DNA from: a bacterium
Lineage (GTDB): Bacteria > RBG-13-66-14
NCBI GenBank assembly: GCA_035528375.1
Contig: DATKYS010000116.1
Span: 1-10,305, forward strand
Direction: 5' to 3'
Length of the DNA: 10,305 bases
Under the pieces are notes generated by a model. The model worked only from the letters and a program-made list of their open reading frames with translations. It was not told the origin of the DNA and ran no database searches. Shown one piece after another: positions 2,601 to 10,305 of this stretch. The stretch's first letter is position 1. The number at the start of each line of letters is the position of its first letter. The translations under genes and the position numbers were made by a program.

Positions 2601-2629
2601 GATTATTTCAAGTTAAATGCGCCACTGCC

Positions 2630-2640
2630 AGGGGAAGGGG
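2630..2640 (+). promoter_or_regulatory. Ribosome binding site of the giant gene
   Basis: AGGGGAAGGGG holds two overlapping Shine-Dalgarno options. AGGGG (2630-2634) is 9 bases before ATG 2644, and AAGGGG (2635-2640) is 6 bases before ATG 2647. Either of the two tandem methionines could be used, and both leave the signal peptide intact. This site fixes the start of the giant gene. Confidence 0.65.
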
Positions 2641-2643
2641 ATC

Positions 2644-2721
2644 ATGATGAAGAGGCTTGGTTTTTGCTTATGCATAGTTCTGGCCCTGTTGTTGACGGGT
2701 ATTGCTCCCCGGGCCTGGGCC
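2644..2721 (+). other. Signal peptide of the giant protein
   Basis: Residues 1-26 have the three classical parts: a basic start (MMKRLG), a hydrophobic core ([14 protein letters not shown]) and a polar end with the signal peptidase I pattern A24-W25-A26 before Leu27. Two cysteines (8 and 10) lie inside the core and are not in a lipobox, so lipoprotein processing is unlikely. The Asp-rich repeats start immediately after the cut. Confidence 0.85.
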
Positions 2722-5700
2722 CTTGATGACCGGGACCGGGACGGGCTTACCGATGCCCAGGAGACCGTGCTGGGCACCAACTCGCTGGATCCGGACACCG
2801 ACAATGACGGCATCCCTGACGGTTGGGAGTACACTCACGGGCTGAATCCTCTCGTGAACGACTCCGGCCTGGACCCGGACGGCGACGGTCTCAAGAACTT
2901 CTCCGAGTACCTGTCCGGGACCGACCCGCAGAGCGCGGACTCGGACGGCGGCGGGGTGAACGACGGGACCGAGGCGTCGGAGGGCAGGAGCCCGGTAACG
3001 AAGCTGGACGATTACTCGGAGACCACCATCACGCTGGGCAGCATGGCCACCCGGGGCGCGGTTGCGCTCTCGGGCCGGGGCAACCAGTTCCGGGTGACCC
3101 AGGGCACCGTGCTGGAGTCCTATTCCCAAATGCTGGACCCACCGGACGGCTCAACCCTATATTTCACGGTGTATGAAGGCTCGACCATCAGCGGCCTGGC
3201 CACCAAGGTTTTTGAGCGGGCGGTGTCGGTGGTTACGGGAGGCACGGCCTGGTACGATTCCGGCCCGATCAACGTGATTTTTGACCCGGCGTCTAAATAC
3301 ACCGTCATGACCACGTGGAGCAATGACGCGGTGGGATATTTCTACGGCAATTATCCCGGCACTCCTCCCCAGAACCTTTTCTTCGGCCAGGCCGCCACCG
3401 GGGCGAGGCTGCTGGTTGCTATTACCGCGCCTCCGCCGGAGCAACTGACTCCGATTTCCTGGACCAGTTTTTATAATCAGAGGCTGATTTTCTGCGACCA
3501 CGGCTGCTTCCCGGCCCGCGCCGCGGTGCTGCGCGACAGCGCCGCCTGGGGGACCAAGGAGGACTCCATCTTCGCCAGCTTCGGCATCCCCTTCAGCGTC
3601 TATTCCAGCGCCGGCCTCGGCAACGTTGATCTCTCCCCCTTTGACAAGGTCGTGGTGCATTCCAACCAGCCCCAGGCCTTTTACGACCAGCTGGCCCAGA
3701 GCAGCAAGTGGATCAACGACTGGGCGGGCGCGGGCGGGAACTTCGAGTTCCACGGCGCGGCCTCGCCGGCCTACGGCAAGTGGCACTCCTACTACACCAT
3801 GCCCACCGGCATCAAGGCCCCGCCCTTCGCCAACGTGAGCGACGGGCTTTCCATCCTCGAGCCCGCGCACCCCATCATGTCCGACGTGCCCCGCTCCGCC
3901 ATCTCCGCCGGCGCCGCCATGGGCGAATTCAACGGCTGGGGCGGGACCCCCACCCACCTGGTCGCGGGAGGCTTCTTTGATGATAAGTTCGTCCATGACG
4001 TCTTCAGCTTCGGCCGGGGCCAGACCATATGCTCCACCTATCCCCTGGAATTCCCGGCCCTCACCGACCCCGCGCACAAGCTGCTCCGCAACTCGCTCCT
4101 GTATCAGCGCTCGTACCCCGCTTGCCCCGCGCCCTTCAACGCCGGCAGCCCGGCCATCAACAGCATATCCTCCAACATCTACCGCGGCGACAAGTACCAG
4201 GTGGACCAGGACACCAGGCTCGTGACCTTCATAGCCTACCTCAACCCCGCCGCCGATGTTAATCTCGACTTCCGTGTTTATGAGAGCTCCAGCCTGAGCG
4301 GCACCTATACCATGATCGCATCCTACCAGGTGCCCACCGGGACCGGCCCGCTCCGCTGGTACGGACCCGACAACATGGGACTCACCCTTGAGGCCGGAAA
4401 ATATTACGCGCTCCTCTACGGCTTCAATGCATCCACCACGTATTATTACCAGAGCGCTTTCCCCTTCCCGGCCAATACCTCGTTCGGGAGCTTGAGGTAC
4501 GGCGTCGCTTATGCCGGGTTCCCCGCGCCCTCTACTTACACGTTCGGCAATTCGACCACCGCCTATTATGAGTTCGTCATCACCGAGCCCGCCGGAGACG
4601 TCTGCCGCGTCGCGGACCAGGACGGCGACGGCCTCGAAGACCGCCGCGAAGTTTTATGGGGCGCGACCTCGACCTCCCCCGACACCGACGGCGACTCCAT
4701 GCCCGACGCCTGGGAGACCGCCCACGGCCTGAACCCCAACTCCGCCAACGGGAGCCAAAACCCCGACGGCGACGGACTCACCAACCTCCAGGAGTACAAG
4801 TGGGGCTCCGACCCCAACCTCGCCGACACCGACTCCGACGGACTCTCCGACTCCCTCGAAGTCCTCACCCTCTACACCCTGCCCGCCGCGGCCGACACCG
4901 ACGGCGACGGCATCGCCGATTATGACGAGGTCAACCTCGACGGCAACCCCAACAACTACACCCCCGGCATTGACACCGATCCCAACAACTGGGACACCGA
5001 CGGCGACGACATGGCGGACGGATGGGAGTACGATCACGGACTCGACCCCCTCGACCCCGTTGACCTCGTCCTCGATTCCGATTCCGACGGGCTCACCAAC
5101 TGGCAGGAATATTATTACGGCACCGACCCCCAGCTCGCCGACTCCGACGGCGACGGACTCAGCGACGTTGACGAGCTTTACCTCACCCTGACCGATCCCA
5201 ACAGTATTGACACCGATGGCGACGGCATGGACGACCAGTGGGAACATGAGTACGGCACCGACCCGCTCGTGGACGACGCCGCCGCCGACCCGGATTCCGA
5301 CGGCCTCACCAACCTCCAAGAGTATGAGCTGGGCCTTGACCCGGGCAGTTACGATCTGGATCTTGACCAGGACGGACTGATGAACGCCGTCGAGACCGGC
5401 ACCGGCGTCTTCATTGACATGACCGACACCGGCACCGACCAGTTAAACCCCGACACCGACAACGGCCTGGAATGGGACGGCCTCGAAGCCCTGATCGCCC
5501 ATGACCCCCACTCACCGGCCGACGACCGAAAATGGTCGGCGCCATCGCTCATCTCCGCGGATGATCTGGGCGACATTGACATCACCCAGACCCGCAACGG
5601 GACCTTCCACGTGGTCTTCATCAAGCGCAACCAGACCGACATCTACTACGCTTCCAACTCCGGCGGAGGATGGTCAACGCCAACCGTCATCAGCGCCACC

Positions 5701-8700
5701 AGTTGCGACGCCCCCCGCATCGCCGCCGAGGGCAACACCGTGCACATGGTCTATGAACCCGGAAACACCACCATGCCCACCGTGCTTTACTATCGCAGCC
5801 GCAGTCCGCTCGGGGTCTGGAGCGATCCGGTGGACATCACGCAAAACACCTCCACCTATTACTACAATCCACTGCCCGTGCTCCGCGCCGACGGAGACCT
5901 CTACGTCTTCTACCGCGAATGGTACGGCAACACCATCGCCTACAGCGTCCTCGACCCGCCCACCAACACCTGGACCGCGAGGAAAGTGGAAATCCCCGAC
6001 GCCACCAACGCCGGCGGAGCTTTTGACGCCGCGGCCGGGACCGACGGCAACCTCCACCTCGCCTGGCAGACCGCCGACACCTGGCAGGAGGAAATATGGT
6101 ACCTCGAGCTTGACGGCGGGACCTGGACCAACCTCTACCAGGTGTCCTCATCCTATGACGCGTCGTCCCTCACCCCCAGGATCGCCGTGGACTCCAATAA
6201 CAATGTCTATGTCAGTTGGTATGAGTATGACACCCACTACTCCACCCTGCGCGTCCGCCGCGATGGCGAATGGGAGACCATCACCCCTATCGCCGAAATC
6301 GCCGGCGTAAACCCGGTTGCCCCCATCGCCCTCGACCGCCTTGACAACCTCTACGCCGCCTTCATGAACCGATACACCGGCCTCTCCCACTTCGGTTTCC
6401 TGGGACCGCTCAAATATGAGCGCGACGAATGGGCCATCGCCTTCAAGATGTTCACCGACAACAACGGCTCCACCCTCCATATCTTTTACGCCATTCTCTC
6501 CCTGAGCGGACAGCTCCAGGGGACCTATCTCACCTCGCTCGCGTTTCCCGACACCGACGCCGACGGAATCAACGACCTCCAGGAGTTCCTCATCGGATCA
6601 GACCCCAATGACACCGACACCGACGGCGACGGGCTCGACGACTACCTCGAAGTCGCCGGCTACGACACCGACCCCACCGTCGTGGATACCGACCTCGACG
6701 GCCTCGGCGACGGCTACGAGCTCACCCTGGGCGACGACTTCAACTGCCTCTCCGACGATTGCATCTCCTCCGGATGCAGCCTCCAGACCTTCGGACCCCA
6801 TCACTACCTCTTCTGCGATTCCGCCTCCACCTGGCCCAACGCCCGCACTCTATGCCAATCCTACGGCGGCGACCTCGTCTCCATCGAGACCACCGCCGAG
6901 AACCAGTTCGTCTACAACACCGCCGCGACCCTGCTCTCCACCACCAACCTCTACCTCGGATACAACGACATCACGACCGAGGACTCTTTCATCTGGTCAA
7001 ACGGCGAGCCGAACGTTTATGAAAACTGGATCGCAAAAGCACCCGACGACATCTACGACATCGCCGGAGACAACAGCTCCACAACCCTGGGAAACAACAT
7101 TGTCGGCAACAAGTATCTGGCATCCATTGACACCACCCTCACCAACTTCGATCAGTACCTCGATGTGGCTACCGGAAACACCGTCATTTTCTATGTCTGG
7201 GAAGCCACCGCCCTGGCCGGGCCCTATACCCTTATCGCCTCCAATACCTTCGCCGCCTCCGGCTCCGGAGCCAGGTTCATCAATTCCGGAACCTTGAACG
7301 CCAGCCTGGTCGCCGGAAGGTACTATTATCTCGCGGCTGGATTCCCCATGGACCAGCGCTACTATCACCATGGCTTCTCCACCTATACTACATTGCACCT
7401 CTCTTTCGGAGACTATCTGCGCGGAGCCCACTACGGAACCCTGCCCGGGTCAACATTGACCGTGAACGACACCACCAGAGCCTATTACCAGCGTCTCAAC
7501 CTCCCTGCCGAGGACTGCGCCGCCATGAGCCGCTCCACCGGTTTCTGGAACGACCTCTCATGCGCCGTGGCCCGCGATTACGTCTGCGAGGACGGCCTGA
7601 ATTATTTGAACCCCGCCAGCAACGACACCGACGGCGGCGGCGAAACCGACGGCCAGGAGCTATATCTCGGCAAGGACCCCAACAACTCAGCCGACGACTA
7701 TCCGCACGGACCCCTCCCCATCCTCGATACCTCCACCGCCAACTACGGATATGAAGACATCAAGATGAGCGTGGACGTCAACGGCAAGATCACCATCTTC
7801 TACAAGGAAAAGAACTGGGTCTTGCCCGATTACCTGTTCGCCCTCAAAGTCACCAAGAGTTACGACGGCGGCGCCACCTGGTCCGTGCCCCAGACCCTCA
7901 TCTCCGAATCCAATACCGATCTCAAGCTCCTCGACGTCGCCCCCCTCGACTCCAACACCGCCGTCATGGTCGTCTACCACCGCGGATCGCCCGCCAAAAA
8001 AATCTTCTCCGCCATGTACTCGGGAGGAACGCTCTCCGGAGAAACCGTCATCACCACCGGATATGCCGCCGTATACAACCAGAGCATACCCTACGGTTTC
8101 GAGCTCGGAGTGCTCTCCAGCTCCACTGTCCGCGCCGTCTGGGGCATGCAGCAAAACCCCGGAGACCCCGTCCAGGTCTTCTACGACACCTGGTATGCCG
8201 CAACCGGATGGGGAGCGCCCGCCCAGTTGACCAGCGAGGCCGGAGACTCATGGATGCCCGACCTCATGGTCCACGGCAACACCGTCTATGTCGCTTATAC
8301 CAGCGATTACGATGCCGCGGGACTCGGCCGCTGCTTTGTCTATTACCGCAAATGGGGCCAGACCGGATGGACCGCCCGCGAGAGCGTGGCCCAGTTCTCC
8401 GAAGGATGGGGAGCCTACCCCGCGCTCTGGTATAGCCCGGCGGGAGGAGTCCACATTCTTGTAAATAACCTCAACTTTATAACGGGCGATTTCACGCTCT
8501 ACTATGCCCACAAGGATGCGGGCGCCTGGACCGAGCCCCTGGCCCTGGGATCAAGGTACGCCAAGCACATCACCGAAACCCGCCCCGGCGTCGTCCACGC
8601 CTTCGTCTATGGCGGCGGCGTCTTCAGGATGTCCAGGTATAAACAGACGTGGACCAGCGCCATCCCCTTCATCATGAACGCACGCATCGAGGACGTGTAC

Positions 8701-10305
8701 AGCGAGAACAACAGCCTCGTCCACATCGCCGGCAGGCTCTTCGTCGCCGGGACCCAGCAGGCATTCTATACCTCCTTTTATTACAACGACGCCGACTACG
8801 ACGGAATCCCCGACGAGGGAGAGTTCATGAACGGCACTCTCCTGGACGACACCGACTCCGACGGCGACGGACTCACCGACTATGAAGAGCTCATCCTCTA
8901 CGGAACCGATCCCAACAGCCCGGACTCCGACGGCGATGGCTTGACCGATCCCGAAGAGCTCGCCGCCGGCACCGACCCCCTGCTCCGGGACACCGACGGC
9001 GACCACATGCCCGACCAATGGGAAGTGGAATACGGCACTAACGCCCTGATCGCCGACGACACCGCCGACCCCGACAGCGACGGACTAACCAACTTCGACG
9101 AGTTCCGCTATCACACCAACCCCCTCGTCACCGAGCCCGTCCCCTCGTCATCATGCTCGTCACCGGCTTACCTCAGCGCCGGGCCCTTGCCCGTAATATT
9201 TACCTGCAGCAACTATCTCGCGTCCGTGGACCTCTACGCCAGCTATAACAATTCCATTTACATCAACATGGCAATTCTCGGATACTCCAAGTCCTGCTTC
9301 GAAAACCAGTTCAGCTTCATACCCTTCTGGGGCGACGGCACCTATAAATTTTACACCGTGGCCCGGCTGGGCACGGTGCTCATCGAGCCCACGCCGCCGA
9401 CACCGCCCGACACCACAACCGTCCTCGATTCCCAGAAACCCGTCATGCAAAACGTCCTCGACGACGGCACCTATACCTCCAACAACACCTCGATCAACGC
9501 CGTCGCCACCGCCGTTGACCTCGGGCCCGCCGGACTCAAGCAGTACTGGTACGCCGTCGGCACCGCCGCCTATCCAACCGCCGGATGGAACAGCCTGCTC
9601 ACCTGGCAGTTGGACGCCGACGGCGTCATCAGCCGGGCCGTGGCCCTCTCCTCGGGCGTCAATTACTTCGTCACCGCCATGGCCGAGGACCAGGCCGGAA
9701 ACACCAGCCAGCCGGCTTCATCCAACGGCATCCGCGTTGACACCTCGGCGCCCACGGCGTTTACGGTGACGGATGAAGGTGATTACACCGGGTATACGGA
9801 TCAGCTTTACGCGAGCTGGACCGTGGCGGGAGATACGACCTCGGGGATTGATCGGTATGAGTATTGTATCGGGACGGCCTTGGGGTCGTGCGACGTGGCG
9901 GGGTGGACCGACAACTTTTTACTCACCGAGGTTACGCGGATGGGTCTTGCGCTGGCGGAGAACCAGAGTTACTTCGTGGGGGTGCGGGCTTATAACGGGG
10001 CCGGGTTATACTTAGAGGCATGGTCGGACGGGATTCTGGTGGACTCGAAGGGCCCGGTGATCGTGTATTCGTCGCCGGCGCACCGGGAGATCGTGAACGA
10101 TACCATGCCGCCGGTCGCCAACCAGGCGTTCGCCATCCGCTTCGGCGACGCGGGCGGGAGCGGGATAGACTGGGCCGCGCCGCATCCGATCGTGCTCGAT
10201 TTTTCGACCGTGGTCTCCTACTCCCTCACCGGCGATACGGTATCGTTTGTATGGGGGAATACTCTGAACCTCGGCAACCACGTGGTCAACGTCACCGTGA
10301 GCGAC
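2644..10305 (+). CDS. Giant secreted multidomain protein with calcium-binding Asp repeats, nested C-type lectin, propellers and Ig/FN3-like modules (3' truncated)
   Basis: The frame is open for 2554 codons to the window edge without an internal stop, so the true protein is longer. It begins with a Sec signal peptide (residues 1-26, AWA before the cut). The mature chain alternates Asp-rich, probably calcium-binding repeats (about 28-115, 658-956, 1303-1363, 1661-1685, 2049-2162) with globular domains. These are: a beta-domain (126-265), a Rossmann/GATase-like domain (280-488), a second beta-domain (505-649), a propeller (964-1299), a C-type lectin domain carrying a third beta-domain (1378-1649), a second propeller (1690-2047), an unassigned Cys-containing segment (2163-2260) and Ig/FN3-like modules from 2262 on. 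The role is probably binding of glycans, surfaces or other cells outside the cell or at its surface; this is inferred from domain types. No enzyme active site is certain, and no surface anchor is visible because the C-terminus is missing. Codon choice is strongly C-ending over most of the gene but changes abruptly near 9750. The intergenic region before it suggests its own promoter. Confidence 0.93.
2725..2988 (+). repeat. Asp-rich calcium-binding repeat cluster A (thrombospondin type 3-like)
   Basis: Residues 28-115 contain DRDRDG, DTDNDG, DPDGDG and DSDGGG loops, each followed by a short xDxxE stretch. This is the pattern of thrombospondin type 3 or EF-hand-like loops in bacterial secreted proteins, where the Asp side chains coordinate calcium and stiffen the chain. 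The second and third loops form the first copy of the 46-residue paired module. Confidence 0.8.
2794..2931 (+). repeat. 46-residue paired Asp-repeat module, copy 1
   Basis: The module has the form DTDxDG(I/M)PDxWE, then GLxP, an irregular acidic linker, DPDGDGLxNxxEY, then GTDP. The same layout recurs at 4681-4818, 4993-5133, 5209-5346 and 8989-9126. All are 46 residues long except the third, which has 47. It pairs one calcium loop followed by WE with one followed by EY. Confidence 0.75.
3019..3438 (+). other. Beta-domain copy 1 of the giant protein
   Basis: Residues 126-265 are rich in beta-prone segments and contain [13 protein letters not shown] in the middle. They resemble residues 505-649 ([19 protein letters not shown]) and 1470-1622 ([19 protein letters not shown]). 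I take the three as copies of one beta-sandwich-type domain of unknown family. This copy is the most diverged: it lacks the TMIAS/TLIAS piece, but keeps the G-W-Y/S-G stretch, an A-x-K-Y near the next strand and an FFG near the end. Confidence 0.5.
3481..4107 (+). other. Rossmann / class I glutamine-amidotransferase-like (ThuA-like) domain
   Basis: Residues 280-488 start with a hydrophobic strand (RLIFCDHGC). An FGIPFSVYS strand follows, then [11 protein letters not shown] as the next core strand, a helix with [16 protein letters not shown], an HPIM turn and a final [13 protein letters not shown] strand with a closing helix. This order and the acceptable placement of the gaps resemble the ThuA/GATase-like flavodoxin-type fold. 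No clear nucleophilic Cys elbow with a following His/Glu dyad can be assigned, so it is more likely a binding or structural version. It is flanked on both sides by copies of the beta-domain. The assignment rests on pattern only. Confidence 0.4.
4156..4590 (+). other. Beta-domain copy 2 of the giant protein
   Basis: Residues 505-649 show [12 protein letters not shown], a YLNP turn, [19 protein letters not shown], a GTGPLRWYG stretch, [18 protein letters not shown], then SFG and a TTAYYEF end. The same blocks in the same order occur in copy 3 inside the lectin domain ([53 protein letters not shown]). The block order supports common descent. The function is unknown; a carbohydrate- or protein-binding beta-sandwich is a guess. 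Confidence 0.6.
4681..4818 (+). repeat. 46-residue paired Asp-repeat module, copy 2
   Basis: The layout is that of copy 1: [34 protein letters not shown]. The first Asp of the second loop is replaced by Asn. Confidence 0.75.
4993..5133 (+). repeat. 46-residue paired Asp-repeat module, copy 3 (one residue longer)
   Basis: [34 protein letters not shown]. The linker between the two loops has one extra residue compared with the other copies. Confidence 0.75.
5209..5346 (+). repeat. 46-residue paired Asp-repeat module, copy 4
   Basis: [34 protein letters not shown]. It is very close to copy 5 (8989-9126), which lies more than 3.6 kb away beyond the lectin and second propeller. Confidence 0.75.
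5533..6540 (+). other. Beta-propeller-like region 1 (sialidase/BNR-like)
   Basis: Residues 964-1299 repeat a blade-like unit. Each has a W-x-x-P/T strand, a stretch such as [31 protein letters not shown] or VYVSWYEY, a strand such as [11 protein letters not shown] or [11 protein letters not shown], and the next W. About five to six such units can be read, with a final weaker pair. This is typical of sialidase-like or YVTN-like propellers in secreted bacterial proteins. No sialidase Arg triad can be assigned, so I expect a binding rather than a catalytic role. Confidence 0.6.
6550..6732 (+). repeat. Asp-rich calcium-binding repeat cluster C (3 loops)
   Basis: Residues 1303-1363 hold [24 protein letters not shown] and [12 protein letters not shown] in a row. 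The cluster joins the first propeller to the lectin domain. Confidence 0.8.
6775..7590 (+). other. C-type lectin domain with an inserted beta-domain
   Basis: Residues 1378-1649 read as a long-form C-type lectin fold in two halves. The first half has C1378 and C1391 (the extra N-terminal pair), W-x-x-A, C1404, GGDLVSI, the LYLGY strand (WIGL position) and [13 protein letters not shown]. The second half has EDC (C1625), FWND (W1635), C1640 and YVCE (C1648). The four conserved cysteines would pair 1404-1648 and 1625-1640. The stretch between the halves, normally some 10-20 residues, holds about 150 extra residues (1470-1622) that match the other beta-domains of this protein. The EPN here belongs to the DG-x-P-x-x-Y-x-NW strand. 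The true Ca2+/sugar motif position (EPN or QPD in classical lectins) reads APD at 1466-1468, so sugar specificity cannot be predicted. The WND triplet needed for calcium is kept. Confidence 0.8.
7051..7509 (+). other. Beta-domain copy 3, nested inside the C-type lectin fold
   Basis: Residues 1470-1622 interrupt the lectin domain just after the KAPDD stretch and end right before EDC. They carry the same blocks as copy 2: [31 protein letters not shown], a G-x-G-A-R-F-x-N-S-G stretch, [13 protein letters not shown], a YYHHGFST segment, LSFGDYLRG and TTRAYY. The reading frame is unbroken on both sides. The codon style is that of the surrounding sequence, so the insertion is not recent. Confidence 0.65.
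7624..7698 (+). repeat. Single Asp-rich repeat D
   Basis: Residues 1661-1685 contain one loop, [12 protein letters not shown], followed by LGKDPNN. The Gly-rich form DTDGGG is the same variant as the last loop of cluster A (DSDGGG). It links the lectin domain to the second propeller. Confidence 0.7.
7711..8784 (+). other. Beta-propeller-like region 2 with an Asp box
   Basis: Residues 1690-2047 repeat units with strands such as [46 protein letters not shown] and VHAFVYGGG, each near a W-x-x-P or W-T-x strand. SYDGGATWS at 1739-1747 is a canonical Asp box (S-x-D-x-G-x-T-W), the signature of sialidase-type BNR propeller blades. Only this one box is clear. It resembles region 1 in type but differs in detail. 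Enzyme activity cannot be claimed. Confidence 0.65.
8788..9129 (+). repeat. Asp-rich calcium-binding repeat cluster E (5 loops)
   Basis: Residues 2049-2162 hold [50 protein letters not shown] and [12 protein letters not shown], with GTDP turns between. The last two make copy 5 of the 46-residue module (8989-9126). Confidence 0.82.
8989..9126 (+). repeat. 46-residue paired Asp-repeat module, copy 5
   Basis: [34 protein letters not shown]. It is an end copy: the GTDP turn has decayed to HTNP and the first loop ends in His instead of Gly. Confidence 0.7.
9130..9423 (+). other. Unassigned segment with three cysteines and a proline-rich linker
   Basis: Residues 2163-2260 start with a Ser-rich stretch containing a Cys (SSSCSSP), then show two more cysteines (IFTCSNY and KSCFENQ), several beta-prone strands ([32 protein letters not shown]), and end in [11 protein letters not shown] do not recognise the fold. 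The proline-rich end is a linker to the first Ig/FN3-like module. Confidence 0.5.
9427..9738 (+). other. FN3/Ig-like module 1
   Basis: Residues 2262-2365 run from DSQKPV to the next DTSAPT. They contain the pattern of fibronectin-III-like bacterial repeats: [11 protein letters not shown], then [16 protein letters not shown] and SNGIRVD. Module 2 has the same blocks, so the two are tandem copies of about 100 residues. Codons here are almost all C-ending (Ala is GCC except for one GCT). Confidence 0.65.
9739..10041 (+). other. FN3/Ig-like module 2, with different codon usage
   Basis: Residues 2366-2466 run from DTSAPT to DSKGPV and match module 1 in layout: [32 protein letters not shown]. The codon style is quite unlike module 1. 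Of the twelve Gly codons at 9781-10080, nine are GGG, against one GGG among nine Gly codons in the 300 bases before. Confidence 0.65.
10042..10305 (+). other. Bacterial Ig-like module 3 (cut by the window edge)
   Basis: Residues 2467-2554 start with DSKGPV, then [25 protein letters not shown], a hydrophobic strand ([14 protein letters not shown]) and [14 protein letters not shown]. The GSGID turn and the L-x-x-G-x-H-x-V-x-V-x-V-x-D end are typical of bacterial Ig-like repeats of surface proteins. It is a different Ig type from modules 1 and 2. The sequence ends inside the protein. Confidence 0.55.

Follow-up and report, generated by a model that had tools for sequence, protein, structure and literature searches.

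A giant bacterial protein that is predicted to be secreted contains a C-type lectin domain (CTLD) divided into two complementary halves by a complete second domain, here called domain B, which lies in the ligand-binding loop of the lectin. This nested anatomy is well supported: at the level of sequence it is established by the split itself, by the homology of the insert to other copies of domain B, by a relative with an empty site and by the occurrence of domain B as an insert elsewhere. The reading that we prefer, with a probability of roughly 0.6, is that the nested domain is real and makes up, together with the lectin, a composite head for ligand binding on a giant, adhesin-like secreted protein.

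The host protein and its domains

The window, meaning the whole stretch of 10,305 nucleotides that was analysed, is one entire contig (G000:C116) with two genes. The features relevant here are listed below, with residues numbered along the open reading frame (ORF).

259 to 2442: Eco57I/TaqI-type adenine methyltransferase
2617 to 10305, forward strand: giant multidomain protein, predicted secreted; open frame of at least 2563 residues whose 3' end lies off the contig
3037 to 3486, forward strand: domain B copy 1 (matched by the insert at 3079 to 3507), standing free with TSP3 repeats before it and the ThuA-like region after it
4144 to 4584, forward strand: domain B copy 2 (matched by the insert at 4141 to 4611), standing free with the ThuA-like region before it and TSP3 repeats after it
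6745 to 7047, forward strand: N-terminal half of the CTLD, beginning at the first conserved Cys (1377) and ending with A-P-D (1475–1477)
7039 to 7047, forward strand: APD at the EPN/QPD position (ORF 1475–1477), with Ala in place of the first residue and Pro and Asp unchanged
7066 to 7503, forward strand: inserted domain B, the third copy (ORF about 1484–1629), replacing the short QPD–EDC loop
7510 to 7596, forward strand: C-terminal half of the CTLD, E-D-C ... W-N-D ... C ... Y-V-C-E-D-G
7546 to 7554, forward strand: WND motif (ORF 1644–1646) of Ca2+ site 2 and the hydrophobic core

The true start of the giant protein is probably the ATG at 2644, which stands ahead of a signal-peptide-like segment. 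The original prediction counted its residues from this ATG, and adding nine converts them to ORF numbering. Besides its single Lectin_C domain the protein contains at least 12 bacterial TSP3 repeats, two BNR/propeller-like regions and an Ig-like region at the C-terminus. The region at about 3490 to 4135, which has a domain B on either side, reads by eye as ThuA/amidotransferase-like and has no Pfam match; a similar region, likewise flanked by domain B, is found in a giant protein of Deltaproteobacteria bacterium RBG_13_61_14 (L009). Weak NCBIfam matches of the window protein to CglD and MtsD fall far under the cut-offs of those families and stem from the TSP3 repeats only. Overall the protein is adhesin-like and resembles giant secreted adhesion proteins.

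The split C-type lectin domain

The Lectin_C profile (PF00059) matches the protein in two pieces, at window positions 6823 to 7041 (profile 2–72, E 3.9e-13) and 7480 to 7590 (profile 71–106, E 1.3e-4 per genome). Each piece is above the curated cut-off, and together they make up the whole domain with an overlap of two profile positions, so that the original prediction of a CTLD in two clean halves is borne out. The six cysteines named in that prediction are all present (ORF 1387, 1400, 1413, 1634, 1649 and 1657), as are two that it did not mention (1377 and 1382). Judged by sequence, these include the cysteines of the conserved disulfides (C1413, C1634, C1649 and C1657) and of the hairpin pair C1387/C1400.

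In known lectins the first residue of the EPN/QPD motif is a ligand of both the Ca2+ and the sugar. The window CTLD lacks an EPN or QPD motif of the Ca2+-dependent sugar-binding lectins and has APD in its place, while WND is kept, just as had been read previously. Of the five side chains that canonically make up Ca2+ site 2, four are retained (D1477, E1632, N1645 and D1646), the first being Ala1475; E1632 is the Glu ahead of Asp-Cys in the EDC motif (ORF 1632–1634). The WIGL motif has decayed to LYLG. For comparison, published reviews have the Ca2+ of the sugar site bound by the EPN/QPD and WND motifs and by the Glu of E-D-C (PMC7618208, PMC6468738); in mincle the site-2 Ca2+ and the sugar are held jointly by residues 168–170 (EPN), E176 and 191–193 (WND) (PMC7618208).

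When the two halves were joined, as had been proposed, a phmmer search matched 154 different chains of known structure (E<=0.001), and all of the matches listed are C-type lectin proteins. The best were the phospholipase A2 receptor, the avian IgY receptor, the mannose receptor and Endo180, with APD aligned to the EPN-type motif. The CTLDs of the mannose receptor and Endo180 share with the window the PF00059 fold profile, the cysteines and the EPN/QPD–E–WND layout; they differ in that their EPN–EDC loop is a handful of residues long, whereas the window has a domain of about 150 residues there and Ala as the first motif residue.

The inserted domain

The CTLD is broken after the APD motif and before Glu-Asp-Cys, which places the insertion in the ligand loop as predicted, and the limits given originally (7048–7512) were right to within a few residues. 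The frame is open through both junctions, and GC3 is coding-like, at 0.74 in the insert against 0.81–0.85 around it. The insert had been said to match a domain present twice elsewhere in the protein, and it is 33% identical to copy 2 (BLASTP 7e-18) and 26% identical to copy 1; in a leave-one-out test the profile recovers the insert at E 5e-21, and none of 1000 shuffled sequences scores better than 0.02. With only 26–33% identity to copies 1 and 2, the insert is not a repeat misjoined in assembly. Domain B has no Pfam match at E<=5 (six members searched) and no NCBIfam match. It is an uncharacterised module of about 145 residues, predicted to be a beta-sandwich.

Structure prediction gave a divided answer. 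AlphaFold models the insert as a separate beta-sandwich, with pLDDT mostly 77–92 over its core in the second model, so that this part of the prediction stood; the CTLD core reached only low confidence, with pLDDT mostly 55–64 in the N-terminal half and below 50 in the upper lobe. The first model, from an alignment of four rows, left the CTLD unfolded. Adding phage CTLDs to the alignment in the second model improved the insert and, only in part, the CTLD, which then showed the beta-alpha-beta-alpha order of the lower lobe at low pLDDT. Foldseek with the second model returned CTLDs (Endo180 CRD2, langerin, DC-SIGN and aggrecan) as well as beta-sandwiches, none at E<=0.001.

Comparisons with a fold library probe the insert and not the lectin. 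They gave Z of 7–8 to PHR and phage fibre domains for model 1 and to Asf1 and adhesin repeats for model 2, in both cases level with unrelated sandwiches, and Foldseek found no match for the insert fold at E<=0.001. The Z values are middling, and the insert is not assigned to the Asf1, PHR, GH2 or CBM families; the structure libraries place the modelled fold only as a generic jelly-roll or Ig-like sandwich.

A relative without the insertion

The closest CTLD was found in RBG_13_61_14 (L015/L008, contig MGQK01000034.1) and is 44–45% identical. Like the window it has the pattern of eight cysteines, all of which it shares, and it is set among TSP3 repeats in a giant protein, with a frame of 4768 residues. 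Unlike the window it is contiguous: it reads NWSTTNGQPDNYMGNQNC...WADDDC, with six residues at the place where the window has about 154, and its motif is QPD...NQNC...WAD. Together with the modelled sandwich, this empty site fits the earlier view that the insert lies outside the CTLD core. With the lectin matches of the joined halves, none of the outcomes named beforehand as refuting that view came about.

The two RBG_13_61_14 frames L008 and L009, of 4768 and 4155 residues, both have TSP3 repeats, Ig-like repeats at the C-terminus like those that end the window protein, and a region that reads as caspase/C13-peptidase-like.

RBG_13_61_14, rather than the phylum of the bin, also provides the best relatives of both genes on the contig. 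The methyltransferase is 44% identical over its full length to the protein from RBG_13_61_14, against 32% over part of its length in the bin's phylum. The tetranucleotide correlation between contig and bin is 0.78, compared with 0.84–0.88 for pieces of the bin of equal size; with RBG_13_61_14 it is 0.80 for the contig and 0.57–0.66 for the bin's own pieces, although the reference loci are similar giant genes and 0.80 may be inflated. It is likely that the contig was placed in the wrong bin or was gained by horizontal transfer, neither of which bears on the insertion itself.

Domain B in other genomes

Domain B is rare, occurring in 4 of 386 genomes sampled across many phyla and in none of 189 genomes of a phylum rich in Lectin_C. 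RBG_13_61_14 has a second giant protein with at least three free-standing copies, and genome G529 has one copy in a small frame of 282 residues. In the phylum of genome G496 it is present in three of five genomes. In three proteins there (L205, L238 and L239) domain B interrupts a BACON/HYDIN-like Ig domain at a constant point, between about 42 and 52 in the positions of the Ig profile. The downstream flank matches Ig profile positions 43/52–106 with i-E 8e-9 (L239) and 2e-5 (L205), where the best shuffle gave 0.055, and the upstream flank matches positions 2–42 weakly. As in the window, domain B interrupts its host, but the host is Ig-like and not a lectin; domain B is thus an insert in two unrelated host folds, which the original prediction did not include. 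Because of its position inside the Ig domain in these three proteins, domain B looks prone to insertion. In L239 another repeat apparently holds a ThuA-like domain in an Ig loop of this kind.

Searches for further cases

Searches of genome contigs, viral contigs, phage records and plasmids found no relative with the same insertion, the plasmid search giving one partial CTLD match, in Gloeothece verrucosa. Among the matches listed for sets of 14, 3, 84, 195 and 386 genomes, which partly overlap and are samples, no other split Lectin_C domain was recognised. The partial matches that were inspected proved to be short or frameshifted, or to be C-terminal CTLD pieces that follow a different domain, and many CTLDs in the search of 84 genomes lack the cysteines and are seen only to about profile position 72. 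No report of a separate domain in the long loop of a CTLD was found in the open-access literature. The nested arrangement is known from a single case, one sequence of a metagenome bin.

Two other groups of CTLDs were noticed. Viral contigs from many metagenomes (L111–L190) carry a large C-type lectin family, with 207 matching stretches, in proteins of about 330 residues with a signal-like start and GEPN...NED...WND intact. In the phylum of genome G041 there are six isolated C-terminal CTLD pieces (L191, L192, L193, L194, L200 and L201) with the pattern W..xGEPN...EDC...WND..C...ACK; the roughly 200 residues upstream contain no N-terminal half and look by eye like another, possibly PI-PLC-like, domain.

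Discussion

In the reading that we prefer, the calcium-type CTLD of a giant, TSP3-rich surface protein has acquired an entire domain B, a module already in use elsewhere in that protein. The CTLD core may still fold around the insert, both halves together, since all cysteines and four of the five site-2 Ca2+ ligands remain. Domain B would project from the rim of the Ca2+/sugar site and could serve as a lid or a second binding surface that covers, extends or replaces the sugar-site surface, giving a composite head that could attach to cells, polysaccharide or surfaces. The original prediction had the insertion either replace or reshape the binding site, and reshaping appears the likelier of the two because most of the site-2 residues are kept. 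Tentatively, and on balance doubtfully, domain B may be a dedicated module that giant surface proteins of bacteria insert into Ig-like and lectin loops alike, here forming a hybrid Ca2+–glycan site with a specificity that neither domain has alone.

The main alternative, rather unlikely though well worth considering, is that the insertion ended sugar binding and that the CTLD core merely holds out domain B as the working part or as a spacer. The loss of the first EPN/QPD ligand in APD and the decay of WIGL would fit this, and many CTLDs that do not bind sugar exist, such as the snaclecs (PMC6468738); yet the D, E, N and D ligands and all cysteines are retained, which is more than the uninserted relative in RBG_13_61_14 has kept. 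The poor prediction of the CTLD core might instead suggest two remnants on either side of domain B that do not fold together, as debris of shuffling or for pairing between chains, and separate C-terminal CTLD pieces do follow other domains in another phylum. We regard this as improbable, given that the halves are exactly complementary, that every conserved cysteine has kept its partner and that the relative carries an unbroken CTLD whose cysteines follow the same pattern.

A chimeric contig assembled from unrelated pieces is highly improbable. The contig is short, ends within a gene and is probably mis-binned, with its genes and tetranucleotide signature leaning to RBG_13_61_14, but mis-binning cannot create an insertion, a single open frame spans both junctions and GC3 is coding-like throughout. 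Domain insertion is common, being found in about 20% of multidomain proteins (PMC13114784), which makes the arrangement less surprising.

Elaborations of CTLD loops are already known: in snaclecs the index-finger loop elaborates the C-type lectin fold (PMC6468738), and insert 4 of AvpA places about 60 residues between beta4 and beta4' (PMC5006420). Both resemble the window in adding structure to the loops of the CTLD upper lobe (PMC6468738, PMC5006420) and differ from domain B in that neither is a domain of its own with relatives in other proteins; insert 4 of AvpA also occupies a different point in the topology and is without structural relatives (PMC5006420). A layout with a whole second domain is unusual.

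The integrin alpha-I domain, which sits in a loop of the alpha-chain beta-propeller and takes part in ligand binding, offers an analogy for how a nested domain B might work, although host and insert are unrelated to those of the window. The C-type lectin fold is a general scaffold for ligand recognition, whose diversity is thought to come from the sequence and length of its loops. If our reading is true, this scaffold would tolerate domain-sized grafts in the loop of the sugar site with most of the Ca2+ ligands kept. Domain B is also an undescribed module, inserted repeatedly and in more than one kind of host.
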